A stretch of DNA of 64,000 bases, from IMG/VR virus record IMGVR_UViG_3300031973_001557, positions 1 through 64,000 of that record, one strand, 5' to 3'. Each line of letters starts with the position of its first letter. Within the stretch, counting starts at the first letter, position 1. This document shows, one piece after another, positions 5,559 through 63,172 of this stretch. The notes beneath the pieces were generated by a model. It had not been told where the DNA came from and did not search any database. It saw only the letters and a list, made by a program, of their open reading frames with translations. The stretch comes from a virus. Position numbers and translations under genes: made by a program.

Positions 5559-5559
5559 T

Positions 5560-6816
5560 ATGGATCCTATAACAAGATTTTTAAATAAAGTTTCCCATAA
5601 ATTCCCAAAAGGGTATCCTGAACTTACAGAAGAAAAGGATATTCTTTTATTACAATCATTATTAGAAAATTTAGATTTAAAAGTAAATTTACAAGAATTA
5701 GTTAAGTTAGAATATGATATTCTTTCTGATAAGGCAAAAAAAATAGCTGAAGAATTAATTACATTACTAGGAATTACTAAAGAACAAATTAAACCAGCCT
5801 CTAAAAATAAAATTGTTATATATGATGATAACAGAGATGTTTTAATTGATAGAATTGAAGATTCTAATAAATACGGTCAAAGAAGACATCCTAGAAGTGG
5901 TAATTTTAAAATAGATGATGTATTTATTATTTTAAAACCAGGAGCTAAAGGAGGTGAATATTACGAATTAAAACCACAACAGCTAGGAATTACTTTAGAT
6001 GAAAAAATAACTCTTGATCAATTATTTAAAGAATTAGAACGAGGAGTAAAAGATAATAAAATAATGTCGGACACTCAGAAAAAAGTTCTTTTATATACTA
6101 TTAATAAGCAAGATAAACCAAGTAGTGAAGAAATAGAAGAAGCAATGTCAGCTCCTAGTTTTTATAATGAAGTATTAAAAAATTTAGGAGAGCCATTAGG
6201 GGCATTAGTATATGGTAAGTCAATAGGAGCTGAAGGAGTTGAATTTCCTGGAGCTGGAAATTATCCTTTAATTGATTATTTACTGTATCAAGGAGATGAT
6301 CAAATCCAAGTAAGTGCTAAAACTTCTAAAGGAATGGGTAATACGGTTAAGTTAAATGATCTTAAAAAAGTAGTTGAGAAAAAAGATGGTGAAATAGATG
6401 CTGATAAAATGTTAGTAATTGATGAAATAACAAAAGGATCAGTATTAGAGGGGCCCCTTAATTTGATAGAAAAAATAGGTAGCTCTACCTTAAAAAAACA
6501 ACTAAAAGAATTTTACGAAAAATATCCTGAATTTCCTAAAATTAATAATCCTTATGATAGGGAAGCTCATGCAGATAGAATTAGGTTAGAAAAAGCATTA
6601 ATTAAAGAATTAAATGCAGATCCAAAATATAATTACAACGATTTATTTAACGAATATGTAGCTGTAAGATATGTTAAATACAAACTAAATCAAAAAAATC
6701 TTGAAGATGGATTTGATATAATCGATGCAGGACAATTTAACGTAACACTAGCTTCTAAAAACAGTCCAGGTCATGATTCAGATAGAGTTGGTTTAGCAGT
6801 TAAAAAATTAAAATAA
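5560..6816 (+). CDS. Hypothetical protein, possible nuclease-like core
   Basis: A 418-residue protein starting 1 nt after the previous stop. Residues 1-60 are helical and Leu-rich. Residues about 85-125 carry an IYDDNRDVLIDRIED segment and a basic RRHPRSGNFKIDD stretch. A compact region near 220-260 reads GVEFPGAGNYPLIDYLL then DDQIQVSAKTSKG. An Asp in the first strand followed by Q-x-[SA]-K resembles a PD-(D/E)XK nuclease core, but with Gln in place of the usual acid the match is weak. The C-terminal half is charged and helical. I do not know the family, and a homology search or structural model would be needed to judge the nuclease idea. Confidence 0.65.
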   Translation: MDPITRFLNKVSHKFPKGYPELTEEKDILLLQSLLENLDLKVNLQELVKLEYDILSDKAKKIAEELITLLGITKEQIKPASKNKIVIYDDNRDVLIDRIEDSNKYGQRRHPRSGNFKIDDVFIILKPGAKGGEYYELKPQQLGITLDEKITLDQLFKELERGVKDNKIMSDTQKKVLLYTINKQDKPSSEEIEEAMSAPSFYNEVLKNLGEPLGALVYGKSIGAEGVEFPGAGNYPLIDYLLYQGDDQIQVSAKTSKGMGNTVKLNDLKKVVEKKDGEIDADKMLVIDEITKGSVLEGPLNLIEKIGSSTLKKQLKEFYEKYPEFPKINNPYDREAHADRIRLEKALIKELNADPKYNYNDLFNEYVAVRYVKYKLNQKNLEDGFDIIDAGQFNVTLASKNSPGHDSDRVGLAVKKLK

Positions 6817-6817
6817 T

Positions 6818-7411
6818 ATGTGTAAATGTGGATGTAATACATGCGATGATAATAAAGCTCCTATTATAAAAGAGGAGAAAAAAGGACTTTTATCTGAAGG
6901 TTTAAAGTATCATCTTGAATATAATATCCCATTATCGGAAAATATCTATCGTATAGGATCCGAAGAATATTGTAAATTATTTCAAGAAGCTCGTAAATTA
7001 TATACTAAAGGACTAATTGAAGTAAATGATAATGATAAGTGGTATCTAACTGAAAATGTTGGTGAATTAGCATATTTTAAAGGAAGAAAAGTTATATTAG
7101 ATACTCCATTTGAAATAAAAGAAGCTGAATATCAAGGTAAACAAGTTGATCTTAATAAACCTAAAAGAGGAGGCAGAAAAAAATTTTATGTTTATGTAAA
7201 AACTCCAACAGGAAGAATAAAAAAAGTTGAATTCGGTGGAACTACAGGATTAAAAGTTAAACTTAAAGATACAGCTAGAAGAAAAGCATTTGCTGATAGA
7301 CATAATTGTAAAGATAAAAAAGATAAAACTAAACCTGGCTATTGGTCTTGTAATCTACCAAGATATGCTCATCAGTTAGGATTAGGTAAAAACATGAATA
7401 CTTTTTGGTAA
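6818..7411 (+). CDS. Virion-type protein with N-terminal Cys cluster
   Basis: A 197-residue protein starting 1 nt after the previous stop. It opens with a dense Cys cluster, CKCGCNTC (residues 2-9), then a Lys/Glu linker with LSEG at 25-28. Cleavage there would remove the whole cluster. Residues 30-105 form a mixed domain. The C-terminal part holds a basic FYVYVKTPTGRIKKVEFGG strand region and a final conserved-looking block (FADRHNCKDKKDKTKPGYW then SCNLPRYAHQLG), a type I associate with marine phage virion proteins. The two Cys and the His in that block could bind a metal. Function is unknown. It shares a base with the next start. Confidence 0.7.
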   Translation: MCKCGCNTCDDNKAPIIKEEKKGLLSEGLKYHLEYNIPLSENIYRIGSEEYCKLFQEARKLYTKGLIEVNDNDKWYLTENVGELAYFKGRKVILDTPFEIKEAEYQGKQVDLNKPKRGGRKKFYVYVKTPTGRIKKVEFGGTTGLKVKLKDTARRKAFADRHNCKDKKDKTKPGYWSCNLPRYAHQLGLGKNMNTFW

Positions 7412-7959
7412 TGGATAGAATAGATAAATTAGTAGAGCAATATCTTAAAGAGCTTAAAGAAAAGACTGAAGTTAAGCAAGATAAGGATATTAAAGGTAGA
7501 AAAGGAACTCAACCTGCAAAATATCATAAAGGATTAAGCAAATCAACTAAAGCAAAAAGAGATGCTCAGTTTAAAAAGCAGGCTAAAATGTCAGATAAAG
7601 ATCCTAGCGCTTATAAAAAAGCACCAGGAGATGCTAGAGCAAAAACTAAACCATCACAATATACTAAGAAGTTTGAAAAAATGTTTGGTGAAATAAAACA
7701 AACATTAAATGAAGAAGATAAAGTTACAAAAGCTTTAAAAAATAAAGCAAAAAAAGCTAATGCTCCTTTAGGTGCTCTTAGAGCTATATACAATAAAGGA
7801 TTAGCCGCTTGGAAAACAGGTCATAGACCTGGTGCAGGAATGCATCAATGGGGAATGGCAAGAGTTAATTCTGTTTTAACTGGAGGAAAAGCAAGAAAAG
7901 TTGATGCTGCACAATGGAAAAAAATCCAAAAATACCGCAAAAACAAGAAAAAGAAGTAG
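7411..7959 (+). CDS. Basic head-region protein with GHRPG domain
   Basis: The protein has 182 residues from the ATG at 7411, which shares one base with the previous TAA. A TTG two codons upstream is less likely. It is very Lys-rich. Residues 28-85 contain AKYHKGLSKSTKAKR and SDKDPSAYKKAPGDARAKT, a disordered-looking cationic segment. LNEE at 99-102 separates it from a conserved-looking domain at 105-175 with RAIYNKGLAAWKTGHRPGAG and QWGMARVNS, a signature I have seen in proteins of large marine phages. The charge suggests binding to packaged DNA. The biochemical function is not known. Confidence 0.7.
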   Translation: MDRIDKLVEQYLKELKEKTEVKQDKDIKGRKGTQPAKYHKGLSKSTKAKRDAQFKKQAKMSDKDPSAYKKAPGDARAKTKPSQYTKKFEKMFGEIKQTLNEEDKVTKALKNKAKKANAPLGALRAIYNKGLAAWKTGHRPGAGMHQWGMARVNSVLTGGKARKVDAAQWKKIQKYRKNKKKK

Positions 7960-8219
7960 TTTTTACCGATAATTCTTATCAAGATTATTTTATTCGCACT
8001 ATTTCAAAAGATGTTGATATAATGTCCTTAATATGGCATAAAGATCAATACACAAGAGATATAGAAGTAATACAATCAAATAATTGGCAGTTTCAATTTG
8101 ATAATAAAGTACCTTTTAAGTTGGAAAATAATCAAAAATTTACTATCTTAAAGGAACGTATACATAGAGTAATTAAAGGTAAAGGTGATTTAATTTTAAA
8201 AATAAAGGAACAAAAATAA
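7914..8219 (+). CDS. Small cupin-like protein
   Basis: A 101-residue protein overlapping the preceding gene by 46 nt. An internal ATG at 8023 would drop the first 36 residues, but the segment FIRTISKDVD just before it looks like part of the domain, so I keep the long form with some doubt. The core (about 38-101) reads IWHKDQYTRDIEV, WQFQFDNKVPF and RIHRVIKGKGDLILKI: short beta-strands, His residues at the expected places and a terminal KG turn, as in small single-domain cupins carried by marine phages. The binding partner or ligand is unknown, and no catalytic role should be assumed. Confidence 0.6.
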   Translation: MEKNPKIPQKQEKEVVFTDNSYQDYFIRTISKDVDIMSLIWHKDQYTRDIEVIQSNNWQFQFDNKVPFKLENNQKFTILKERIHRVIKGKGDLILKIKEQK

Positions 8220-8226
8220 ATAAAGA

Positions 8227-8235
8227 TATTTATAA
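8227..8235 (+). promoter_or_regulatory. Late-motif TATTTATAA
   Basis: TATTTATAA ends only 3 nt before the ATG at 8239 and continues as TATTTATAAATA, so it also contains a forward T4-type TATAAATA. Such tight spacing is hard to reconcile with a normal -10 box for this start, unless the transcript is leaderless or serves the genes beyond. Confidence 0.4.
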
Positions 8236-8238
8236 ATA

Positions 8239-8907
8239 ATGCAACAACAACCACATAGATACGAAAAATTTAGAGTAATAAATACCATTTTAATAGTAGT
8301 ATTAATTATTGTTTTACTAATGAAAGGATGTGGGGATGGTAATGGAGGTCCTACTGAACCTGTTATTATTAGAGATACTACATCTGTGGTTACTTATGAT
8401 ACAGTTACTAATGAAACAGTTAGTTACGTACCTCAATATTATGAGAGAGAAACAATAAAATATATTCATGATACAATCACCCAGATTGAATATAAAATTG
8501 AGCCAACTGATACGTCTGCCATTCTAGAAGATTACTTTGCTAAGTATTATTATGTGGATACTGTAATTCATACCGATAGTATTACTTTCATTGTATACGA
8601 TACTATTACTCAAAATCAAATAGCAGGTAGATCTTCTAAGTATAATATTTTATATCCTACTATTACAAATACAATTACTGAAAAGCATTATATTAATGCA
8701 AGAGAGCTATATTTAGGATTTAATACAGGCTTTATAGTTAAACCCTTTAATTTAGCTAACGCTAATTTAGGAGTATTATTACGAACTAAAAGAAGATATA
8801 TTATAGGATTAAATGGAGGAGTTCAATTTAGTCATGATAATGGTAATTTTATAAATACTACACCTTATTTAGGAGTTAGTTATTATCAAAAACTTACAAA
8901 AAAATAG
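8239..8907 (+). CDS. Membrane-anchored protein with beta-rich C-terminus
   Basis: A 222-residue protein with a short positively charged N-terminus, a hydrophobic helix (about residues 15-29) and a Cys right after it (MKGCGDGNGG). This could be a signal-anchor or a non-classical lipoprotein signal; the Lys before GC departs from the standard lipobox. A Thr/Tyr-rich repetitive section follows (DTTSVVTYDTVTNETVSY). The last 70 residues alternate aromatic and polar residues (LYLGFNTGFIV, RRYIIGLNGGVQF, PYLGVSYYQKL) as in outer-membrane beta strands. It could be a lysis (spanin-like) or envelope protein. It sits directly before the terminase and shares a base with its start. Confidence 0.6.
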   Translation: MQQQPHRYEKFRVINTILIVVLIIVLLMKGCGDGNGGPTEPVIIRDTTSVVTYDTVTNETVSYVPQYYERETIKYIHDTITQIEYKIEPTDTSAILEDYFAKYYYVDTVIHTDSITFIVYDTITQNQIAGRSSKYNILYPTITNTITEKHYINARELYLGFNTGFIVKPFNLANANLGVLLRTKRRYIIGLNGGVQFSHDNGNFINTTPYLGVSYYQKLTKK

Positions 8908-10475
8908 TGTCGGATATTAAACAAATAATTAAGCAAGAATATATAAAGTGCGCAACTGATCCTGTACACTTTATGAAGAAGTATTGCTTTATCCAACACC
9001 CTCAAAGAGGTAAAATTAATTTTCATTTATATCCTTTTCAAGAAAGAGTAATGACATTATGGAAAGATAATCCATATTCTATTATTCTTAAATCAAGACA
9101 GTTAGGTATTTCAACATTAGGTGCAGGATATGCATTATGGTTAATGTCTTTCTTTGAAAATAAAAATGTATTAGCATTAGCAACAACCCAGGCAACAGCA
9201 CGTAACTTAGTTACTAAAGTGCAATTTATGTATAATAATTTACCTTCATGGTTAAAAGTTGATAATGTAGAAAATAATAAATTATCTTTAAGATTAAAGA
9301 ATGGTTCAAGAATTCAAGCTAAATCTTCTTCTCCAGATGCAGCTCGTTCAGAAGCAGTATCTCTATTGATTGTTGATGAGGCTGCATTTATTGATAATAT
9401 TGGTGAGACCTGGGCAGCAGCTCAACAAACACTAGCAACAGGTGGTGGTGCATTAGTTTTATCTACTCCATATGGTGTAGGAAATTGGTTTCATAAAATG
9501 TGGGTTAGTGCACAAGAAGGTACTAATAATTTTTTACCTATAAAATTACCCTGGGATGTACATCCAGAAAGAGATCAAGAATGGAGAGATAGACAAGATT
9601 TATTATTAGGAGATCCTAAAAAAGCTGCTCAAGAATGCGATTGTGATTTTAATACTTCCGGTGATACAGTCTTTCCAGCTAATCAATTAACTCATATTAC
9701 AGAAGAAACTACCGTAAACCCACAAGAAAAAAGAGGTATTGATAAATCATTATGGGTATGGGAGCCGGTAGATTATTCTAAAAATTATATAGTAGCTGCT
9801 GATGTAGCGAGAGGAGATGGTCAAGATTACTCAGCATTTCATATTATTGATATAGCTTCTAATACTCAGGTTGCTGAATATAAAGGTAAGTTACCAACAT
9901 TGGATTTTGGTAATTTATTAGTTTCTATTGCGACTGAGTATAATAATGCTTTATTAGTAGTAGAGAACTCAACTATTGGATGGGCAGTTATTCAAGCAAT
10001 CCAACAAAGAGGATATAGAAATTTATATCATTCACCGAAGGGAGGTAGCGTAACGGTTGAATCTTTCTTTTCTGAATGGTCCGATCATAGTAAGCTTACC
10101 CCTGGGTTCTCAATGAATCTAAAAACTAGACCATTAGCTATCTCTAAATTTTTAGAATTTGTTAACGATAGAAGTGTTACTATTAAATCTAAAAGATTAT
10201 TAGAGGAAATGAAAACATTTGTATGGAGAAATGGAAAAGCTGCTTCACAAGAAGGATATAATGATGACTTAGTTATGTCATTTGCTATTGCAATGTTTAT
10301 GAGAGATATATCACTAGCTTATAAGTCACAATCCACTGATATGTCAAAAACTTTATTAAACGGAATAGTTAACAGTAAAAATAACAATATTTATACAAAT
10401 AATAGTATGGTAAGAAATCCATACGAAGTAGATTTAGATAAAGACAAAGGTCACGATATAAAGTGGCTTTTATAA
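8907..10475 (+). CDS. Terminase large subunit (gp17-like)
   Basis: This is the ATP-driven DNA packaging motor and headful nuclease. The 522-residue protein starts with GTG at 8907, overlapping the previous TAG. An adenine-binding/linker region with IILKSRQLGIST gives the Walker A motif (T4 gp17 has SRQLGKT). LLIVDEAAFID is Walker B with the catalytic Glu. The C-terminal RNase H-like nuclease domain shows VAADVARGDGQDYS (first Asp), LLVVENSTIGW (Glu) and YNDDLVMSFAIA (last Asp). The length is somewhat shorter than T4 gp17 (610). I recognise no small terminase subunit in the window. The portal gene follows after 9 nt. Confidence 0.97.
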   Translation: MSDIKQIIKQEYIKCATDPVHFMKKYCFIQHPQRGKINFHLYPFQERVMTLWKDNPYSIILKSRQLGISTLGAGYALWLMSFFENKNVLALATTQATARNLVTKVQFMYNNLPSWLKVDNVENNKLSLRLKNGSRIQAKSSSPDAARSEAVSLLIVDEAAFIDNIGETWAAAQQTLATGGGALVLSTPYGVGNWFHKMWVSAQEGTNNFLPIKLPWDVHPERDQEWRDRQDLLLGDPKKAAQECDCDFNTSGDTVFPANQLTHITEETTVNPQEKRGIDKSLWVWEPVDYSKNYIVAADVARGDGQDYSAFHIIDIASNTQVAEYKGKLPTLDFGNLLVSIATEYNNALLVVENSTIGWAVIQAIQQRGYRNLYHSPKGGSVTVESFFSEWSDHSKLTPGFSMNLKTRPLAISKFLEFVNDRSVTIKSKRLLEEMKTFVWRNGKAASQEGYNDDLVMSFAIAMFMRDISLAYKSQSTDMSKTLLNGIVNSKNNNIYTNNSMVRNPYEVDLDKDKGHDIKWLL

Positions 10476-10484
10476 ATTTAAAAT

Positions 10485-12443
10485 ATGGCTGATATTAATA
10501 ATCCAATGCCACCATACGAAGATGGTAAGAATGAAGGTCAAATGGGACCTCAAACAGGTATTTTTGCAACTCTTAGAAGACTATTTTCTACTGATGTAGT
10601 AATTAGAAATGCAGGTGGTAAAGAATTAACTGTAGTTGATAGTGATCATATCCAATCATATGGTAAATATGATACTAATGCATTAGTTGATAGATTTAAT
10701 AGAATTTATACATCTGGTCCTACTTCATTATATGGATATCAAAGTAATTTTAATTATCAATTATTAAGACCACAATTATACTCTGAATATGATGTAATGG
10801 ATACTGATGCTATTATAGCTTCAGCCCTTGATATAGTAGCTGATGAATCAACTTTAAAAAATGATATGGGGGAGGTATTGCAAATACAATCTTCCGATGA
10901 TGATATTCAACAAATATTATATAACTTATTTTATGATATATTAAATATTGAATTTAATATGTGGCCATGGGTAAGAAATATGTGTAAATATGGAGACTTT
11001 TTTCTTAAATTAGAAATATCTGAAAAATATGGTGTATATAATGTTATACCATATTCAGCATTTCATATTGAAAGGCAAGAAGGATGGAATAGAGATAATC
11101 CATCAGAGGTAAGATTTAAGTATTTTCCACAAGGCATATCTCAAGGTCAAACAGGATACTATAATGTAATGGGAGCAGGATCAGAGGATAATAAAAACCA
11201 AATTATTCTCGATAACTATGAAGTAGCTCACTTTAGACTATTAACTGATACAAATTACTTACCATATGGTAGAAGTTATTTAGAACCTGGTCGCAAATTA
11301 TTCAAGCAATATACTTTAATGGAGGATGCAATGTTAATCCACCGTATAGTAAGAGCTCCTGAAAAAAGAATTTTTTATATTAATATTGGTAATATTGCTC
11401 CTAACGAAGTTGATAATTTCATGCAAAAAGTAGTTTCAAAAATAAAAAGAACTCCTTATATGGATGAACAAACTGGAGAATATAATCTAAAATACAATTT
11501 ACAAAATCAATTAGAAGATTTCTATATACCAGTGCGTGGTAATGATGCTGCTACAAAAATTGAAACAACTAAAGGTTTAGAATATGACGGTATTCAAGAT
11601 GTAGCTTATTTAAGAGAAAAATTATTTGCTGCATTAAAAGTTCCTAAAGCATTTATGGGTTATGATGAAAACTTAGATGGTAAAGCAACTTTAGCAGCAC
11701 AAGATATTAGATTTGCAAGAACAGTTGAAAGGATTCAAAGAATTATAGTGTCTGAACTATACAAAATAGCATTTGTTCATTTATATACATTAGGATATAG
11801 AGATGATAATTTAACTAATTTTAAATTATCTGCAACTACTCCATCAATTATTTATGATCAGGAAAGAGTTGCACTACTAAAAGAAAAAGTAGACTTAGCA
11901 AATCAAATAAAAGATAATAATCTATTACCAACTGATTGGATTTATGAAAATATATTCCATTTTGGAGAAGAAGAGTATCAAGAATATAGAGATTTACAAA
12001 TCGAAGATGCAAAGCGTAAGTTTAGATTATCTCAAGTAGAAGCAGAAGGTAATGATCCTGTTAAAACTGGTAAATCGTATGGTACTCCTCATGATTTAGC
12101 ATCATTATATGGTCCAGGAAGATATGGGCAAAAACAAGAAGTACCAAAAGGTTATGATGAAGAAAACCCAGAGGGTAGACCAAAAGAAAGAGCATCTACT
12201 ATAGGTACTCAAAATAATAACTTTGGTAGAGATCCGTTAGGAAGTGGAGGCGTTAAGAATGATGTAAATGATAATGGACGTATAAATCCTAATGCAAAGA
12301 AATTCAAATTTAGTCAAGCAGAAGCTAAAGTAAATAATTTATCTAACAATGGTTTATTTAATCGTTTAGATTCTAAAAAACGCGTAATCTTAAAAGAAGA
12401 AGATGGGTTATTAGATGAAAATAATATTTTAAATAACGATTAA
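10485..12443 (+). CDS. Portal protein (gp20-like)
   Basis: The dodecameric portal ring forms the DNA entry vertex, docks the terminase and nucleates prohead assembly. At 652 residues it is a little longer than T4 gp20 (524), mainly because of a hydrophilic C-terminal extension with Gly/Asn/Lys-rich segments (about 545-650). The core shows the usual features of T4-like portals: YQSNFNYQLLRPQLYSEYD, then DTDAIIASALDIVADESTLK, the YDGIQDVAYLREKLFAALKV region and a helical stem ending in REKLFAAL and ERIQRIIVSELYKIAF. It follows the terminase directly. Its last residues contain ILKEEDGLLDENN, which may be trimmed by the prohead protease. Confidence 0.96.
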   Translation: MADINNPMPPYEDGKNEGQMGPQTGIFATLRRLFSTDVVIRNAGGKELTVVDSDHIQSYGKYDTNALVDRFNRIYTSGPTSLYGYQSNFNYQLLRPQLYSEYDVMDTDAIIASALDIVADESTLKNDMGEVLQIQSSDDDIQQILYNLFYDILNIEFNMWPWVRNMCKYGDFFLKLEISEKYGVYNVIPYSAFHIERQEGWNRDNPSEVRFKYFPQGISQGQTGYYNVMGAGSEDNKNQIILDNYEVAHFRLLTDTNYLPYGRSYLEPGRKLFKQYTLMEDAMLIHRIVRAPEKRIFYINIGNIAPNEVDNFMQKVVSKIKRTPYMDEQTGEYNLKYNLQNQLEDFYIPVRGNDAATKIETTKGLEYDGIQDVAYLREKLFAALKVPKAFMGYDENLDGKATLAAQDIRFARTVERIQRIIVSELYKIAFVHLYTLGYRDDNLTNFKLSATTPSIIYDQERVALLKEKVDLANQIKDNNLLPTDWIYENIFHFGEEEYQEYRDLQIEDAKRKFRLSQVEAEGNDPVKTGKSYGTPHDLASLYGPGRYGQKQEVPKGYDEENPEGRPKERASTIGTQNNNFGRDPLGSGGVKNDVNDNGRINPNAKKFKFSQAEAKVNNLSNNGLFNRLDSKKRVILKEEDGLLDENNILNND

Positions 12444-56390: not shown

Positions 56391-56580
56391 ATTAGGTATA
56401 AATAAAGGTCCACATAGAGAAGATAGAGTCTTACAGAATACATATTTCGAAGAAGAATTAAATATATTATTTTCTAGAATAAGAGATAATGGAGTTAATT
56501 TAACGAAAAATGATATGAAGTATTTAGAATATTTAGGTAATAAAACAGTTAATGATAATTTAAAACAAGAAAATGAGTAA
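56383..56580 (+). CDS. Small hypothetical protein before QueC
   Basis: A 65-residue charged helical protein from the ATG at 56383, overlapping the previous gene by 8 nt and the QueC gene by 8 nt. A GTG at 56365 is a weaker alternative start. It reads TKLGINKGPHREDRVLQNTY then a helical, acidic C-terminus. I know of no function. The double overlap argues that it is translated. Confidence 0.6.
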   Translation: MTKLGINKGPHREDRVLQNTYFEEELNILFSRIRDNGVNLTKNDMKYLEYLGNKTVNDNLKQENE

Positions 56581-57385
56581 AAATGTTGTAATTAGTCTTT
56601 CTGGAGGGATGGACTCCTCTACTTTATTAATCCATGCTTTAAAAGAAGGATTTAATGTAACTGCAGTATCTTTTGATTACGGTCAAAAGCATCGTGTAGA
56701 ACTTGAAAGAGCTCAGTCTTTAATTGATTATATTAATCTAACCAGATTGAATGAACCAAACATCAAGTATCAAGTAATTAAATTAGATGGTCTTCCAGAT
56801 CTACTTAACTCAGCTCTAGTATCAGGAGGAGAAGAAGTACCGGAAGGACATTATGCAGAAGAAAATATGAAAGCTACGGTAGTACCTAATCGTAATAAAA
56901 TCTTTTCTTCTATAACTCAAGCTATTGCTCTCTCAATGTATAAAGCAAATAATCTACCAACTTATATTGGAATGGGTATTCATGCAGGTGATCACGCAAT
57001 TTATCCCGACTGTAGAGAAGAATTTAGAGATGCAGATCTAGCTACTTTTAAATTAGGAAACTGGGATGCTGATAATATCGAATATTATACTCCGTTTATT
57101 AATGATGATAAGTATGGTATTTTACAAGCAGGAGAAGTTGCTTGTTTTGAATTAGGATTAGATTTTAATGAAGTATATTCTCGAACGAATACTTCATATA
57201 AACCTATTCAAATAGATAAAGAATGGTATTCTGATTATAAATCAGCTTCTTCTGTAGAACGTATCGAAGCATTTATTAAGTTAGGAAAAAAAGATCCTGT
57301 AAGATATGCTGACGAAACAGGAGTAGTACATTGGCAGAAAGCTAAAGCTCACGTACAAGAAGTATTATTAAATTATAATACATAA
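56573..57385 (+). CDS. queC: QueC-like 7-cyano-7-deazaguanine synthase lacking the zinc cysteines
   Basis: A 270-residue PP-loop amidotransferase-like enzyme. ISLSGGMDSSTLLIHALKEG (SGGMDSS 10-16) is the ATP-pyrophosphatase motif. FDYGQKHRVELERAQ and ATVVPNRNKIFSSITQAIAL are QueC-specific blocks, and GIHAGDHAIYPDCREEF is the substrate loop. In standard QueC, four Cys near the C-terminus bind zinc. The equivalent positions here are S208, D221, S224 and S227 (TSY and DYKSASSVER). It would convert carboxydeazaguanine to the amide and nitrile, or stop at the amide. It opens the operon's core with QueD downstream. Confidence 0.93.
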   Translation: MSKNVVISLSGGMDSSTLLIHALKEGFNVTAVSFDYGQKHRVELERAQSLIDYINLTRLNEPNIKYQVIKLDGLPDLLNSALVSGGEEVPEGHYAEENMKATVVPNRNKIFSSITQAIALSMYKANNLPTYIGMGIHAGDHAIYPDCREEFRDADLATFKLGNWDADNIEYYTPFINDDKYGILQAGEVACFELGLDFNEVYSRTNTSYKPIQIDKEWYSDYKSASSVERIEAFIKLGKKDPVRYADETGVVHWQKAKAHVQEVLLNYNT

Positions 57386-57390
57386 TATTA

Positions 57391-57534
57391 ATGAAAGAAT
57401 TTATATATCATATGCTAGGATTATGCGGGGAATCACATCCTTCCTTACTATCTTTACTTATGATAGGGATTACTCCATTTATTTTTATGTATAAAAAAAT
57501 AATAAATTATGTCAAAAAAATTTTTATCAAGTAA
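57391..57534 (+). CDS. Small membrane protein between queC and queD
   Basis: A 47-residue frame missed by length thresholds: KEFIYHMLGLCGESHPSLLS, then LLMIGITPFIFMYKKIINYV. It has an amphipathic N-terminus, a GLCGESHP block I recall from small phage proteins, one membrane helix and a Lys-rich tail. It starts 5 nt after the QueC stop and its end overlaps the QueD gene by 26 nt. Spacing and the distinctive N-terminus support that it is real. Confidence 0.6.
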   Translation: MKEFIYHMLGLCGESHPSLLSLLMIGITPFIFMYKKIINYVKKIFIK

Positions 57535-57979
57535 AATATATGATGGGTATTCTACTTGTTTTCGACAATGGAAAGCAACAGATACACACTGTCAATATTT
57601 ACATGGATACTCAGTATCTCTTAAAATAACATACGAAGGTGAACTCGATGATAAAAATTGGGTAGTAGATTTTGGCAGAGCTAAAAGATCCAATATAGAA
57701 ATCGACGGTATGAAAGTAAAAGAATGGTTATCATATATGTTAGATCATACTGTAATAGTAGCAGAGGATGACCCATTTTTAGAAGCTTTTAAACAAATGG
57801 ATAAAGTAGGAGCAGCTCGAGTAAGAGTTATTCCTGCTGTAGGAGCAGAAAAATTTGCTGAGTATTTTTATAATAAATTAAATGATTGGGTAAAAGAAGA
57901 TACTAATAATCGATGTAAAATAGTATCAGTAGAAGTTAGAGAACACGAAAAAAATAGTGCAATATATTATGGAGAATAA
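57509..57979 (+). CDS. queD: QueD-like 6-carboxytetrahydropterin synthase with altered zinc site
   Basis: A 156-residue T-fold enzyme. YDGYSTCFRQWKATDTHCQY then LHGYSVSLKITYEGEL is the start typical of phage QueD-like proteins. The catalytic Cys (C28), one His (H32), the DH pair (D79, H80) and Glu (E114 in VGAEKFAEY) are kept. Two of the usual three zinc His are not: the first aligns with F18 and the last (HGH) with Y34. NWVVDFGRAKR and MLDHTVIVAEDDPF are family blocks. It would turn dihydroneopterin triphosphate into carboxytetrahydropterin if active. Confidence 0.88.
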   Translation: MSKKFLSSKIYDGYSTCFRQWKATDTHCQYLHGYSVSLKITYEGELDDKNWVVDFGRAKRSNIEIDGMKVKEWLSYMLDHTVIVAEDDPFLEAFKQMDKVGAARVRVIPAVGAEKFAEYFYNKLNDWVKEDTNNRCKIVSVEVREHEKNSAIYYGE

Positions 57980-58787
57980 AATTAGAATAGCTCATGAAGC
58001 ACCTATGTCAATATTTGATAAGGTACAACAGCTAACAGATTACGATTATTGTTTAGTTCATTTAATGGATGAAATTCCGGAATATAAAGAAATATTTTTT
58101 AAAGCTAAAAAACAAGGCAGAGAAATTATTTTAGATAATAGTATTTTTGAATTAGGTAAATCATTTAATAATAAAAAATATTATCATTGGGTAACTGAAC
58201 TAGAACCAACATGGTATATTATTCCAGATGTATTAGAAGATTGCGATAAAACGATTGATAAAGCAAAAAGATGGCTATCAAAATATCCTGATATTAAAAG
58301 TAAATCTATTGGTGTAGTTCAAGGTAAAACATATGAAGAAATAGTTAAATGTTATAAATTTATGGTGGAGGAAGCTAAGGTAGATAAAGTAGCTATTTCA
58401 TTTGATTATTCATATTATTTAAATACTTACGAAAGTTTAGGATCAAATAAATATGAAAGATTTACAATTGGTAGAGCATGCTTAATAGATCAAATGATCG
58501 AGGACAAAGTTATTGACTATAGTATCCCAGTTCATCTATTAGGCTGCGGTTTACCACAAGAAGGAGCATTCTATAAAGAAGATCCTGAACGATACTTTTT
58601 TATAGATTCTGTAGATACATCTAATCCTATAGTGCATGGTATAAAAAATGTACAATATACAAAATATGGATTAAAAGATAAAGAATCACAAAAATTATTT
58701 ACTATGATAAATTATAAATTAAATTCTCAAATATGGGATTTAATAGAATATAATACTAAAGCATTTAAAAATTTATGGAATGCATAA
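57969..58787 (+). CDS. TGT/DpdA-like 7-deazaguanine DNA transglycosylase
   Basis: A 272-residue TIM-barrel protein from the ATG at 57969. A GTG at 57957 is an alternative. It resembles the transglycosylase family that exchanges guanine for deazaguanine: REIILDNSIFELG (D56, candidate nucleophile or binding Asp), YIIPDVLEDCDKTIDKAKRW (D87), SIGVVQGKTYEEIVKCYKF (VQG 117-119), KVAISFDYSYYL (D146) and VHLLGCGLPQEG (189-194). Tandem location with queC/D/E/F and folE2 suggests that the substrate is phage DNA (DpdA function) rather than tRNA. It overlaps queD by 11 nt and the formyltransferase gene by 8 nt. Confidence 0.83.
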   Translation: MENKIRIAHEAPMSIFDKVQQLTDYDYCLVHLMDEIPEYKEIFFKAKKQGREIILDNSIFELGKSFNNKKYYHWVTELEPTWYIIPDVLEDCDKTIDKAKRWLSKYPDIKSKSIGVVQGKTYEEIVKCYKFMVEEAKVDKVAISFDYSYYLNTYESLGSNKYERFTIGRACLIDQMIEDKVIDYSIPVHLLGCGLPQEGAFYKEDPERYFFIDSVDTSNPIVHGIKNVQYTKYGLKDKESQKLFTMINYKLNSQIWDLIEYNTKAFKNLWNA

Positions 58788-59331
58788 AAGATGGATCGCA
58801 ATGTTCTCGCAAACTGGAAGCGAGCTTATAGAAGTAATTAATGCTCTAGATAGAGAACCTGATATTATTATAACTAATAAAAGACCTGAACATTTAAGAA
58901 GTATTAATCAAGATTTATTAGATAGATGCAGAAATAAAATTTGTTATGTATCTAACAAACCAACACTAGAAGAATATTATGGAATATTTGAACGATTTGT
59001 TTTTAATCCTATTGTTACTCTCCACGGCTGGTTAAGAGTATTGCCGCCGGAAATATGTAGGAGTTATGAAATTTATAATGGTCACCCAGGAGATATAATT
59101 AAATATCCAAAATTAAAAGGAAAGGATCCACAGTTAAAAGCTTGGAAAAAAAATTATAAATTTATAGGAACAGTATTGCATAAGGTAATTGAACAGGTAG
59201 ATGAAGGAGAAATTATAGCTTATAAAAATAAAATTCCTACTAGAAATTTGGAACTTGATGATTATTTTCGTATATTAAGAAACGAGTCGATAGGCTTATG
59301 GATACAATTTTTGAATAAAAGGTTATACTAA
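58780..59331 (+). CDS. Formyltransferase-like protein (PurN/Fmt N-terminal fold)
   Basis: A 183-residue single-domain formyltransferase-like protein. VTLHGWLRVLPPEICRSYEI leads to YNGHPGDIIKYPKLKGKDPQ and HKVIEQVDEGEII. The triad residues N100, H102 and D141 match the Asn-His-Asp of 10-formyltetrahydrofolate-dependent transferases such as PurN. It lies between the transglycosylase and the kinase within the deazaguanine operon, so its acceptor is probably the aminomethyl group of preQ1, or preQ1 in DNA, rather than a purine precursor. Acceptor assignment is inference. Confidence 0.82.
   Translation: MHKRWIAMFSQTGSELIEVINALDREPDIIITNKRPEHLRSINQDLLDRCRNKICYVSNKPTLEEYYGIFERFVFNPIVTLHGWLRVLPPEICRSYEIYNGHPGDIIKYPKLKGKDPQLKAWKKNYKFIGTVLHKVIEQVDEGEIIAYKNKIPTRNLELDDYFRILRNESIGLWIQFLNKRLY
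59263..59279 (+). other. Sequence similar to the middle promoter motif, inside a coding region
   Basis: TATTTTCGTATATTAAG resembles the motifs at 46071 and 55906. It is coding here (Tyr-Phe-Arg-Ile) near the end of the formyltransferase gene, 51 nt before the next ATG, so it may be a coincidence of codon choice. Confidence 0.2.
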
Positions 59332-59885
59332 TGAAAATAGCATTTACAGGAGCTCAGGGAACGGGTAAATCTACTTTAGTTAATTATCTTGCAGATAATA
59401 ATGTTAAAGAAATAGAAGAATATACTTTTGTAAAAGAAGTAACAAGAAGAATACAAAGACAATTTAATCTTGATATTAATGAGAAAGGAGATCTGACTAC
59501 TCAGATACTAATTATTACAGATCATATTGTAAATTTACGTAAACCAAAAGTAGTAATGGATAGATGTATTTTAGATGCATTAGTCTATACTCGATGGTTA
59601 TGTGATTATAATCCTGGTATTCCTAACTGGGTTTATGATTATTGTGAAAATGTATTTAAAAGTTATATTAATCAATATGACATTATATTTTATTTAAAGC
59701 CTGAATTTGATCTGGTTAGTGATGGTGTGAGAAGTGATGATATAGACTTTAGAGATGATATAGCAGATTTATTTGAAACCTACATAAATAATTTTGGTGT
59801 AGAAGTTGTGGAATTAACAGGTACGGTAAAACAAAGAGTTAAACAAATTAAAAAAGCAATTAATGAGCACACAAAGTCAAATTAA
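59331..59885 (+). CDS. P-loop nucleotide kinase-like NTPase
   Basis: A 184-residue P-loop protein: KIAFTGAQGTGKSTLVNYLA is the Walker A motif and KVVMDRCILDALVYTRWLCD resembles the AAA_28/NadR-type nucleotide kinase family, with an IIFYLKPEFDLVSDGVRSD lid-like region. Possible substrates are a (deoxy)nucleotide or nucleoside. Its location inside the deazaguanine operon suggests that it serves nucleotide supply or salvage there, but it could be a general phage dNMP kinase. It overlaps the start of queF by 23 nt. Confidence 0.7.
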   Translation: MKIAFTGAQGTGKSTLVNYLADNNVKEIEEYTFVKEVTRRIQRQFNLDINEKGDLTTQILIITDHIVNLRKPKVVMDRCILDALVYTRWLCDYNPGIPNWVYDYCENVFKSYINQYDIIFYLKPEFDLVSDGVRSDDIDFRDDIADLFETYINNFGVEVVELTGTVKQRVKQIKKAINEHTKSN

Positions 59886-60780
59886 TGATATAGCGGGAAC
59901 GCTATTAGGTAAAAGAGGAGGAGAAGGTTATTCAACAACTTATGATTCTTCTTTATTAGTTCGTATTCCTAGATCTTTAAATCGAGAAACTTATCGAATT
60001 GATAATAAAAATCTTCCGTTTATAGGAGGAGATGTCTGGAACGCATACGAAGTATCAGCTATTACTAATACTGGAAGACCAGTATCAGGAGTAATGAAGA
60101 TATGGTGTGATGCAGATTCTAAATATCACGTTGAATCTAAGTCAATTAAACTATATCTTAATTCCTTTAATATGACTCCTTTTGGGGAAACAGGAGAAGA
60201 ATGTATTAAGATTATTGAGGATACCGTATCAGAAGATTTATCAACTTTATTAGAAACAGAAGTTGAATGTAAATTATTTACAAGAAATGATAGTCTTAAT
60301 TTTGATGTCTTTAGTGATTATGATGAACTAGAAGATTTAGTAGATTTAGATAAAGTAGATTATTCTAATGATAAATTAGAAAAATTAGATATTACCAAAG
60401 CATCGTTTAAAGATTTTAATCCTAGATTAAAAGTTCGTACTAATCTTTTAAGAAGTAATTGTCGAGTAACTAATCAACCAGACTGGGGTGACTTATTTAT
60501 TTTTATTAAAGGTAATGAGAAGGATAGTGTATTTACTCTAGATAGTCTAGCAAGCTATATTGTTTCTCATAGACAAGTTAATCACTTTCATGAAGAGATC
60601 GTAGAAATGATCTTTAAAAAATTATACGATGAATTTAATCCTAAAGAACTAATGGTATGTGCAATGTATACTCGAAGAGGAGGGATTGATATTAATCCTA
60701 TTCGATCTACTCATGAGCATTTAATTCCTGGTGCATTTAGAACTATGAATAGCTTAACTCAAAAAACATTACGTCAATAA
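59863..60780 (+). CDS. queF: QueF, NADPH-dependent preQ0 reductase
   Basis: A 305-residue two-domain (type II) QueF, close to E. coli QueF (282). YHVESKSIKLYLNSFNMTPF is the family's ESKSxKLYLNSF block. SNCRVTNQPDWGDLFIFIKG carries the catalytic Cys. SHRQVNHFHEEIVEMIFKKL has the FHE motif and RRGGIDINPIRS the closing block. It reduces the nitrile of preQ0 to the aminomethyl group of preQ1, which supplies an amine for the neighbouring formyltransferase. It shares its last base with the start of queE. Confidence 0.95.
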   Translation: MSTQSQINDIAGTLLGKRGGEGYSTTYDSSLLVRIPRSLNRETYRIDNKNLPFIGGDVWNAYEVSAITNTGRPVSGVMKIWCDADSKYHVESKSIKLYLNSFNMTPFGETGEECIKIIEDTVSEDLSTLLETEVECKLFTRNDSLNFDVFSDYDELEDLVDLDKVDYSNDKLEKLDITKASFKDFNPRLKVRTNLLRSNCRVTNQPDWGDLFIFIKGNEKDSVFTLDSLASYIVSHRQVNHFHEEIVEMIFKKLYDEFNPKELMVCAMYTRRGGIDINPIRSTHEHLIPGAFRTMNSLTQKTLRQ

Positions 60781-61556
60781 TGAAATGTAAAAGATTAAGA
60801 AGTTACGAAAAACCTTTACAGGTATTAGAGCTTTATACTGCAGTTCAATCTGAAGGTTCAAGACAAGGTTACCCTACTATTGTAGTTAGAACATCAGGAT
60901 GTACTCATAGATGCTTCTTTGGTGAAGGTGGATGGTGTGATAGTTGGTATACATCTATTCATCCGGAAAAAGGTACTTTCTGTTTTAATGACATTATCAA
61001 AATGTATGATGATAATCCTCATATAAAAGAGATGATGTTAACTGGGGGATCTCCTACTATGCACCCTGCTTTAGTAAATGAATTAACTCATTTTGCTCAT
61101 GAGCGAGGAATCTTTATTACTATTGAAACAGAAGGATCTCATTTTTTAGAAACTGATTATCCTATTAATCTATTATCTATTTCACCTAAATTTAGTAATT
61201 CTATTCCAGTAGTAGGAGCTAAAACACCGCTAGGAGAGATAGTAGATGAGAAGATGATCATCAAACATAACAGTAAACGATTGAATAAAGAAGCAATCAA
61301 AGCTTCTATTGAATATCATAATGATTATCATATTAAACCAGTATTAGATAAAGATTTAACTATTCTTCCGGAAGTAGAGGAGTTTGTTAAAGAGTTAGAG
61401 ATACCAGATGAAAAGATTTGGTGTATGCCTGCTGGAGATGATATTCCTGCTCTACAAGAATCCTATCCTGTAGTAATGAACTTTGTTAGAGATAGAGGAT
61501 GGAGATTTACAGGTAGAAGTCATATTATGGCTTTTGGTACAGAAAGATGTGTTTAA
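60780..61556 (+). CDS. queE: QueE-like 7-carboxy-7-deazaguanine synthase with CX3CX7C motif
   Basis: A 258-residue radical SAM enzyme. LQVLELYTAVQSEGSRQGYP is the typical QueE N-terminus. The iron-sulfur Cys residues are C41, C45 and C53 (SGCTHRCFFGEGGWCDSWYT), so the motif is CX3CX7C instead of CX3CX2C, with the usual WCDS at the third Cys. MLTGGSPTMHPALVNELTHF is the SAM-binding GGxP region, and ISIETEGSHF-like residues (ITIETEGSH) follow. It rearranges carboxytetrahydropterin to carboxydeazaguanine. It follows queF with a one-base overlap. Confidence 0.92.
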   Translation: MKCKRLRSYEKPLQVLELYTAVQSEGSRQGYPTIVVRTSGCTHRCFFGEGGWCDSWYTSIHPEKGTFCFNDIIKMYDDNPHIKEMMLTGGSPTMHPALVNELTHFAHERGIFITIETEGSHFLETDYPINLLSISPKFSNSIPVVGAKTPLGEIVDEKMIIKHNSKRLNKEAIKASIEYHNDYHIKPVLDKDLTILPEVEEFVKELEIPDEKIWCMPAGDDIPALQESYPVVMNFVRDRGWRFTGRSHIMAFGTERCV

Positions 61557-61572
61557 TATTTAAAATAAAATT

Positions 61573-62598
61573 ATGCAAGATAACAGAAATAAGGAAAAAA
61601 AATATGAGTGGATCGGAGATGTTAAATCTTATAAGGAACCGGAAGATAATGAATATTCGGTAAAATATAATGAACCGGATAGAGAATATGATGCTACTTA
61701 TAGACCTACAAAAGCTGATATCGAGACATTTCCTGATCTTCAAAATGGACCTTCATCTTTGATTCAAGGAAGTCCTGTAGAGATCCAACAAGTAGGTATT
61801 CATAATTTTAGATTACCTCTTAAGTATGAAAAGCGTGGAGGAGGGGATATTGAATTAGAAACTCGAGTAACCGGAACAGTATCCTTAGCAGCTCATAAGA
61901 AAGGAATTAATATGTCTCGTATTATGAGATCTTTCTATAAGTTTAAAGATGATTACGTATATGATAAGTTAGATGATATTCTAATGAAGTATAAAGATAA
62001 TCTAGATTCATTTGATGCTAAGATTGGATTACATTTTTCTTATCCTATTTTACAACCTTCTTTAAGATCAAATAATGCTGGTTATCAATATTATAATGTA
62101 ACTTTAGAAGGTAATATTGATTATACAGGTAATTTTAAAAAGATCTTACATTTTGATTTTGTTTATTCTTCTGCTTGTCCTTGTTCGTATGAATTAGCCG
62201 AGCATGCAAGAAAGTATAGAAATAAAGCAACAGTATCTCATTCTCAAAGATCGGTAGCTAGAATATCAATAGAGTTTGATAAAATTGTATGGATAGAAGA
62301 TCTACAAGAGATGTGTGCTAAAGCTCTTAAGACCGAAACTCAAGTAGTTGTAAAGAGAGAAGACGAAATGGCCTTTGCTGAACTTAATGGTTCTTATCTC
62401 AAATTTGTAGAAGATGCCGCTCGATTATTATACGAACAATTATCCGAAGATAAAAGAGTAAAAGATTTTAGAGTAATATGCTCTCATCAAGAGTCTCTAC
62501 ACTCTCACGATGCAATATCGGTTATAACAGCACCAAACAGCAAGTTTAGTCAAGATATATCACATGAGGTATGGTCCAGTTTAATTCATATTTCGTAA
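61573..62598 (+). CDS. folE2: FolE2-like GTP cyclohydrolase (GCYH-IB)
   Basis: A 341-residue protein. The first 60 residues are a charged extension. SPVEIQQVGIHNFRLPLKYE and GTVSLAAHKKGINMSRIMRS (102-120) are family blocks. YSSACPCSYELAEHARKYR (C202, C204) and TVSHSQRSVARISIEF match the Cys and HNQRS-type regions of type IB GTP cyclohydrolases. It would make dihydroneopterin triphosphate from GTP, the first step to 7-deazaguanines. It closes the pathway genes in this window, 16 nt after queE. Confidence 0.9.
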   Translation: MQDNRNKEKKYEWIGDVKSYKEPEDNEYSVKYNEPDREYDATYRPTKADIETFPDLQNGPSSLIQGSPVEIQQVGIHNFRLPLKYEKRGGGDIELETRVTGTVSLAAHKKGINMSRIMRSFYKFKDDYVYDKLDDILMKYKDNLDSFDAKIGLHFSYPILQPSLRSNNAGYQYYNVTLEGNIDYTGNFKKILHFDFVYSSACPCSYELAEHARKYRNKATVSHSQRSVARISIEFDKIVWIEDLQEMCAKALKTETQVVVKREDEMAFAELNGSYLKFVEDAARLLYEQLSEDKRVKDFRVICSHQESLHSHDAISVITAPNSKFSQDISHEVWSSLIHIS

Positions 62599-62671: not shown

Positions 62672-63172
62672 ATGCAATATAAATATAGTAGAAGAGATGA
62701 TTATGTACCGTTTGTATCCGAGGTAGAACAATTTAATGAAGCCTTTAATAAGCCTAACAAGTATATTCCTAATGTTCCCGAAAAAGAACAATGGATGTTT
62801 GTGTATAACTTTATCTTAGAGGAGTTAAATGAGTATAAAGAAGCATGCGAGAGAGGGGATGTAGTAGAGGTCTTAGATGCATTAGCCGATATTACTTATG
62901 TTGCAACCGGAAATGGTGTAATGCTACATGGTCTTAAAGATCATTTTGAAGCAGCTTATGAAGAAGTACATCAATCAAATATGTCTAAGTTGTGTAAGAC
63001 TTTAGAGGAAGCCGAACAGACGCGCGACCTGCGGTCCGAACAACAAGGTGAACCATGTCATATTGAACAAAGAGATGATTACTGGGTAGTATTAAGAAGT
63101 AGTGATCGTAAGGTCATGAAGTCGGTTAACTATTTCCCACCAAATTTAAGCGCGATATTAAATGAGCAGTAA
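62672..63172 (+). CDS. MazG-like NTP pyrophosphohydrolase
   Basis: A 166-residue all-alpha NTP pyrophosphohydrolase-like protein. FILEELNEYKEACERGDVVE and VLDALADITYVATGNGVML provide the EExxE and ExxD metal-binding motifs of MazG/HisE-type enzymes. FEAAYEEVHQSNMSKLCKTL is the second conserved helix. The C-terminal part holds a small domain with a Gln/Asp-rich strand. It may clear non-canonical or host nucleotides during replication. It overlaps the DNA polymerase start by 11 nt. Confidence 0.8.
   Translation: MQYKYSRRDDYVPFVSEVEQFNEAFNKPNKYIPNVPEKEQWMFVYNFILEELNEYKEACERGDVVEVLDALADITYVATGNGVMLHGLKDHFEAAYEEVHQSNMSKLCKTLEEAEQTRDLRSEQQGEPCHIEQRDDYWVVLRSSDRKVMKSVNYFPPNLSAILNEQ

Follow-up and report, generated by a model that had tools for sequence, protein, structure and literature searches.

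The window, a stretch of 64,000 nucleotides from a 72,415-base IMG/VR virus record, probably encodes a phage DNA hypermodification pathway that would place a formyl-preQ1-type base in the phage DNA, a reading to which we give a probability of about 0.8. The genes, folds, motifs and linkage were observed, and from them we infer the chemistry. FolE2, QueD, QueE and QueC would convert GTP to preQ0, which QueF would reduce to preQ1. A small DpdA3-type transglycosylase would put the 7-deazaguanine base into the phage DNA in exchange for guanine, and a DpdN-like enzyme would formylate the aminomethyl amine, with formyl-tetrahydrofolate as donor, either before or after insertion, giving 2'-deoxy-7-(formylaminomethyl)-7-deazaguanosine as the predicted end product. 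The modified base would likely confer resistance to host nucleases. A first-pass annotation had predicted a formyl-preQ1-type base, and this is supported at the level of sequence, in that the catalytic motifs are kept and QueF accompanies DpdN in all but one of 70 clusters of related loci (69). The gene cluster is compact and apparently able on its own to supply DNA with a formylated guanine analogue, and could be useful for enzyme discovery.

Cui et al. 2023 reportedly found fdPreQ1 (formylaminomethyl-deazaguanine) in phage DNA, together with the formyltransferase DpdN and the small transglycosylase DpdA3, and we therefore take the system in the window to be of an already known type. The text of papers citing Cui et al. 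2023 yielded no details of fdPreQ1 or DpdN. What our analysis adds to the first-pass annotation is the linkage of a kinase and the apparently exchangeable nature of the decorating enzyme.

Organization of the gene cluster

The terminase in the window's record indicates a tailed phage; the G+C content of the record is 25–33%, and a DNA-level search of the phage collection found no close relative of the window. The modification genes form a single plus-strand cluster of eight genes at positions 56573–62598, in the order QueC, QueD, DpdA-type transglycosylase, formyltransferase, kinase, QueF, QueE and FolE2. From QueD through QueE the genes overlap or abut, with spacings of -11, -8, -1, -23 and -1 bases. 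Seven of these genes (FolE2, QueD, QueE, QueC, QueF, the DpdA/TGT-like gene and the PurN-like gene) had been named in the first-pass annotation, and all are present on the plus strand where it had placed them; the kinase at 59331–59885, inside the cluster, had been overlooked. The HMM searches that the annotation proposed matched six of the seven in Pfam, PHROG or NCBIfam, and the transglycosylase was matched by fold and homology instead. Because the DpdA–formyltransferase–kinase–QueF block recurs across dozens of diverged viral contigs, we exclude chance as its origin.

Genes for preQ0 and preQ1 supply

The gene for QueC, the 7-cyano-7-deazaguanine (preQ0) synthase (270 aa, 56573–57385), matched Pfam QueC PF06508 (E 1.4e-37) and a PHROG QueC-like family (1.3e-44), and its product carries an SGGMDS PP-loop. 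QueE, a radical SAM 7-carboxy-7-deazaguanine synthase (258 aa, 60780–61556), matched a PHROG QueE-like family (2.9e-49) and NCBIfam Bsubt_queE (2e-14), and FolE2, a GTP cyclohydrolase IB (341 aa, 61573–62598), matched Pfam GCHY-1/FolE2 (9e-70) and, above its cutoff, NCBIfam FolE2 (E 1.8e-80). The role of the FolE2 slot is supported by a close relative (L006) in which, judged by eye, a GTP cyclohydrolase I-like ORF occupies that position. QueD, a phage-type 6-carboxytetrahydropterin synthase (156 aa, 57509–57979), matched PTPS (E 7.8e-16) and a PHROG QueD-like family (6e-42), with no match in the PDB at E 0.01. The motif of this phage subfamily, RQ...HC...HGY instead of the usual HGH pattern, is conserved among relatives, as is the QueE cluster motif CX3CX7C; since both are common to relatives, we ruled out that they represent gene defects.

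QueF, the NADPH-dependent preQ0 reductase that would yield preQ1 (305 aa, 59863–60780), is of the long two-domain type, with matches to QueF_N (1.4e-30) and QueF (5.6e-22). It aligns to 3bp1 over nearly its full length and retains the SNC...NQPDWG, ESKS and FHE motifs. Its score against TIGR03138, 243 bits, is below the curated threshold (293), and in phages QueF is hard to separate by sequence from the amidinotransferase QueF-L (PMC6884629). On the basis of its motifs and two-domain architecture, the protein is predicted to be a nitrile reductase.

The transglycosylase

The transglycosylase gene, recognized by homology, fold and invariant Asp, lies on the plus strand at 57969–58787 (ATG at 57969, with a GTG upstream at 57957) and encodes about 272 aa. 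It had no usable match in Pfam or NCBIfam, and the Pfam TGT model PF01702 matched nothing in the window's record and nine other records. The DpdA3 profile retrieved no TGT from PDB sequences, and a fold comparison was therefore made. An AlphaFold model built from 31 sequences, those of the window and of viral contigs, had a pLDDT of 93; in Foldseek it matched TGT best (E 2e-8), with a further match to 7ui4, a crystal structure of DpdA (E 6e-6, rmsd 3.8 A). Two residues, D60 and D220 (numbered from the GTG at 57957), were invariant in the 31 sequences, and, from the motifs D-x3-F and D-x3-P aligned by eye, we take them to be the counterparts of the catalytic Asp pair in TGT. The CxCxxC zinc motif is not conserved in the DpdA3 family, whose sole invariant Cys is C132.

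Over nearly its full length, the protein is 51.5% identical to the 'DNA guanine transglycosylase' of the Flavobacterium phage immuto and 40–42% identical to homologues in Campylobacter Firehammervirus phages, and the DpdA of one of the latter, CP220, nests in the tree among window-type loci. The clade of the window, CP220 and immuto enzymes is presumably the DpdA3 of Cui et al. 2023. In a set of 84,980 bacterial and archaeal species, the DpdA3 family was present on five contigs, all of them in MAGs or bins; this near-absence from cellular genomes fits phage DNA, and not tRNA, as the target. The DpdA/TGT-like call of the first-pass annotation is borne out by the TGT/DpdA fold, the two invariant Asp and the identity to the immuto enzyme, and these support the prediction of a DpdA3-type transglycosylase that acts on phage DNA. 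Separately, a Pelagibacter MAG contig (L168) carries at 5559–10655 a divergent DpdA3 beside QueD, QueC, QueE and a FolE-like ORF; DpdN, kinase and QueF were not found nearby, and this content would predict preQ0 or ADG, not formyl-preQ1.

The formyltransferase and its association with QueF

The DpdN-like formyltransferase (183 aa, 58780–59331) matched Formyl_trans_N (E 1.2e-6) and is 51.7% identical to its immuto counterpart. A profile of the family matches PurN structures with E values down to 8e-14, and N100, H102 and D141 are invariant in the family; by their motif (N-x-H...D) we take these residues to be the PurN catalytic triad. Against the NCBIfam PurN model the protein scored 37.6 bits, compared with a cutoff of 150.1. 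Because PurN-like folds formylate several amines, the substrate was deduced from gene context, and it is presumed to be the amine of preQ1 (or dpreQ1).

To describe this context, 222 DpdA-bearing loci were grouped at 85% identity into 92 clusters, 76 of which had enough flanking sequence; these are mostly viral contigs, although MAG contigs or phage records stand for a few of the clusters. DpdN was present in 70 of the 76, and in viral contigs it repeatedly adjoins DpdA and QueF. In 67 of the 70 DpdN clusters QueF lay within 5 kb, and in two more it was found elsewhere in the contig. Only six clusters were without DpdN, and four of these also had no QueF nearby. The association of DpdN with QueF gave a Fisher P of 4e-4 uncorrected and 6e-5 corrected, values that overstate independence because the clusters share ancestry. 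DpdN almost never occurs without QueF, as would be expected if it acts on the preQ1 amine made by QueF. One 41-kb contig (L068), which may be a fragment, has a DpdN homologue, and DpdA3, kinase and QueF were not detected there.

Comparison with known phage systems

Among the closest known systems is that of Flavobacterium phage vB_FspM_immuto (Immutovirus, MW353175-7), which has the same succession of DpdA, formyltransferase, kinase and QueF, and, like the window, QueD, QueE and MazG nearby. However, immuto has a FolE I and scattered Que genes with small ORFs between them, whereas in the window the operon is compact and includes FolE2, and the two have no similarity at the DNA level.

In the Campylobacter phages CP220 and CPt10, the small DpdA homologue is immediately followed by a homologue of the window's kinase (39–41% identity). 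The DNA of these phages contains dADG, with 100% of dG replaced (PMC8306585), as opposed to the formyl-preQ1 predicted for the window. Profile searches found neither DpdN nor QueF in CP220. The presence of QueF in DpdN phages, together with the absence of both genes from CP220, a phage with dADG, counts in favor of the formyl-preQ1 pathway. Directly 5' of the CP220 DpdA is a protein with HD and AAA domains (gp055; L003, 5886–6917), a candidate dNTP hydrolase. Phages with DpdA1 or DpdA2 (9g, CAjan, nt-1 and Dp-1) share with the window the preQ0 supply genes and the principle of a transglycosylase (PMC6884629). Other 7-deazaguanines are carried by 9g, Dp-1, nt-1 and HVTV-1 (PMC6884629, PMC8306585), and these four gave no match to the DpdN or DpdA3 profiles.

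The kinase and alternative explanations

Between the formyltransferase and QueF lies an AAA_28/NadR-RNK/dNMP-kinase-like P-loop kinase (184 aa, 59331–59885; AAA_28 E 5e-20). Its profile matches NadR, deoxynucleoside kinase and thymidylate kinase in the PDB, and fold comparison agrees. BLAST relatives among 50,697 phage records were found in Campylobacter phages and, weakly, in Streptomyces phages, and in no others; a profile search identified the immuto homologue. The kinase had no match in 9g, Dp-1 and HVTV-1 and a weak one in nt-1, and it does not accompany the divergent DpdA homologues of MA9V-3 and a further locus, L161. A role of the NadR-like kinase in NAD salvage is a further possibility; a CTP_transf_like partner, which would suit it, was not found in the window's record, and matches in other records were scattered. 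The linkage of the kinase to DpdA3 is nearly as tight as that of the remaining cassette genes: of 76 clusters, 64 have it no more than 5 kb from DpdA and 54 no more than 1.2 kb away. The kinase is probably part of the modification module. Its position beside DpdA3, also in phages in which all guanine is reported to be replaced, makes the mechanism of complete replacement directly testable.

This linkage raises an alternative in which the same product would arise at the nucleotide level: DpdA3 would act on a small dG nucleotide, exchanging its base; the kinase would phosphorylate the modified nucleotide and the polymerase would insert it, while MazG- or HD-type hydrolases would lower dGTP. Such a route could explain how DpdA3 phages come to have all of their G replaced. 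TGT-fold enzymes normally work on polynucleotides, however, and a search for dADG phosphates during infection by Campylobacter phages reportedly gave none. The resemblance of the kinase profile to both nucleoside and nucleotide kinases favors such a route, as do the kinase's presence in CP220, a phage without DpdN or QueF, and its failure to match 9g, Dp-1 and HVTV-1; but it is missing beside the divergent homologues in MA9V-3 and L161, and within 5 kb of DpdA in eight clusters with DpdN and QueF, all of them fragment contigs of at most 31 kb. Similarly, an HD-domain protein precedes DpdA in CP220, and MazG is found no more than 5 kb from DpdA in 25 clusters, yet this is only a third of the 76. 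A modified dGTP route has been proposed for Campylobacter phages (PMC6884629); in CP220 and CPt10 all dG is replaced (PMC8306585). This proposal, the full replacement and the kinase linkage make exchange at the nucleotide level a reasonable hypothesis, although we regard it, and the accompanying lowering of dGTP, as unlikely.

Two further explanations concern the target and the formyl group. The preQ1 pathway is common to tRNA queuosine synthesis, and the genes might raise queuosine or preQ1 in host tRNA and so aid translation, with the transglycosylase acting on tRNA. We know of no place for a formyltransferase in queuosine synthesis, and the unmatched Pfam TGT model, the unconserved zinc motif and the homologue in CP220, whose DNA is reported to be modified, also argue against a tRNA target. 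Such a role has been raised for phages without DpdA (PMC6884629), and we consider it scarcely credible here. Alternatively, the formyltransferase could be a true PurN, boosting purine synthesis and merely situated within the cluster, in which case the DNA base would be plain preQ1. PurN enzymes are its best structural relatives, and PHROGs includes a cyanophage PurN family; but the match to the PurN model falls far short of the cutoff, the gene is strongly tied to QueF and DpdA3, and two cassettes without it have other acyl-type enzymes in its place, making a true PurN very unlikely. The DNA-level formyl-preQ1 pathway is our preferred explanation.

Possibly exchangeable decorating enzymes

In one of these two cassettes (L089/L163, IMGVR_UViG_3300024264_002661), the kinase between DpdA and QueF (6123–7079) is extended at its C terminus, where GNAT is matched weakly (E 0.0023, below cutoff), and the product is possibly acetylated preQ1. 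In the other (L212), the space between DpdA and the kinase is taken up by an FkbH-GNAT protein, whose FkbH match is above cutoff (E 4e-44), together with a VOC/methylmalonyl-CoA-epimerase-like protein (6918–8812), with QueF adjacent. DpdN was not found elsewhere in these contigs (27 kb and 18 kb, respectively), both of which may be fragments. In the tree both stand beside DpdN-bearing relatives, which suggests two separate replacements of DpdN. Together, the two contigs point to DNA bases for which there may have been no search so far. One could speculate that DpdA3 and its partner kinase make a modified deoxynucleotide used by the phage polymerase, and that an exchangeable enzyme decorates it to give a range of so far undescribed acylated preQ1 bases; we hold this to be decidedly unlikely. 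The decorating enzyme would be a formyltransferase in most phages, a kinase-fused GNAT-like domain in L089/L163 and FkbH-GNAT plus VOC in L212, an assignment that we regard as equally speculative.

Neighboring genes

Next to the cassette, on the plus strand, is a MazG-like nucleotide pyrophosphohydrolase (166 aa, 62672–63172; PRA-PH E 1.2e-10, PHROG 3e-31), and 3' of it the window takes in the start of a family B DNA polymerase. The polymerase ORF (573 aa; record 63162–64883, L074 3163–4884) stops within the polymerase domain, matching positions 24–204 of 453; a second part was not found in the record, so that the gene may be split or truncated, or the assembly may have a gap. Elsewhere in the window, a single ORF at 701–2479 matches both ATPase/polynucleotide-kinase-like and 5'-3' deoxyribonucleotidase families.
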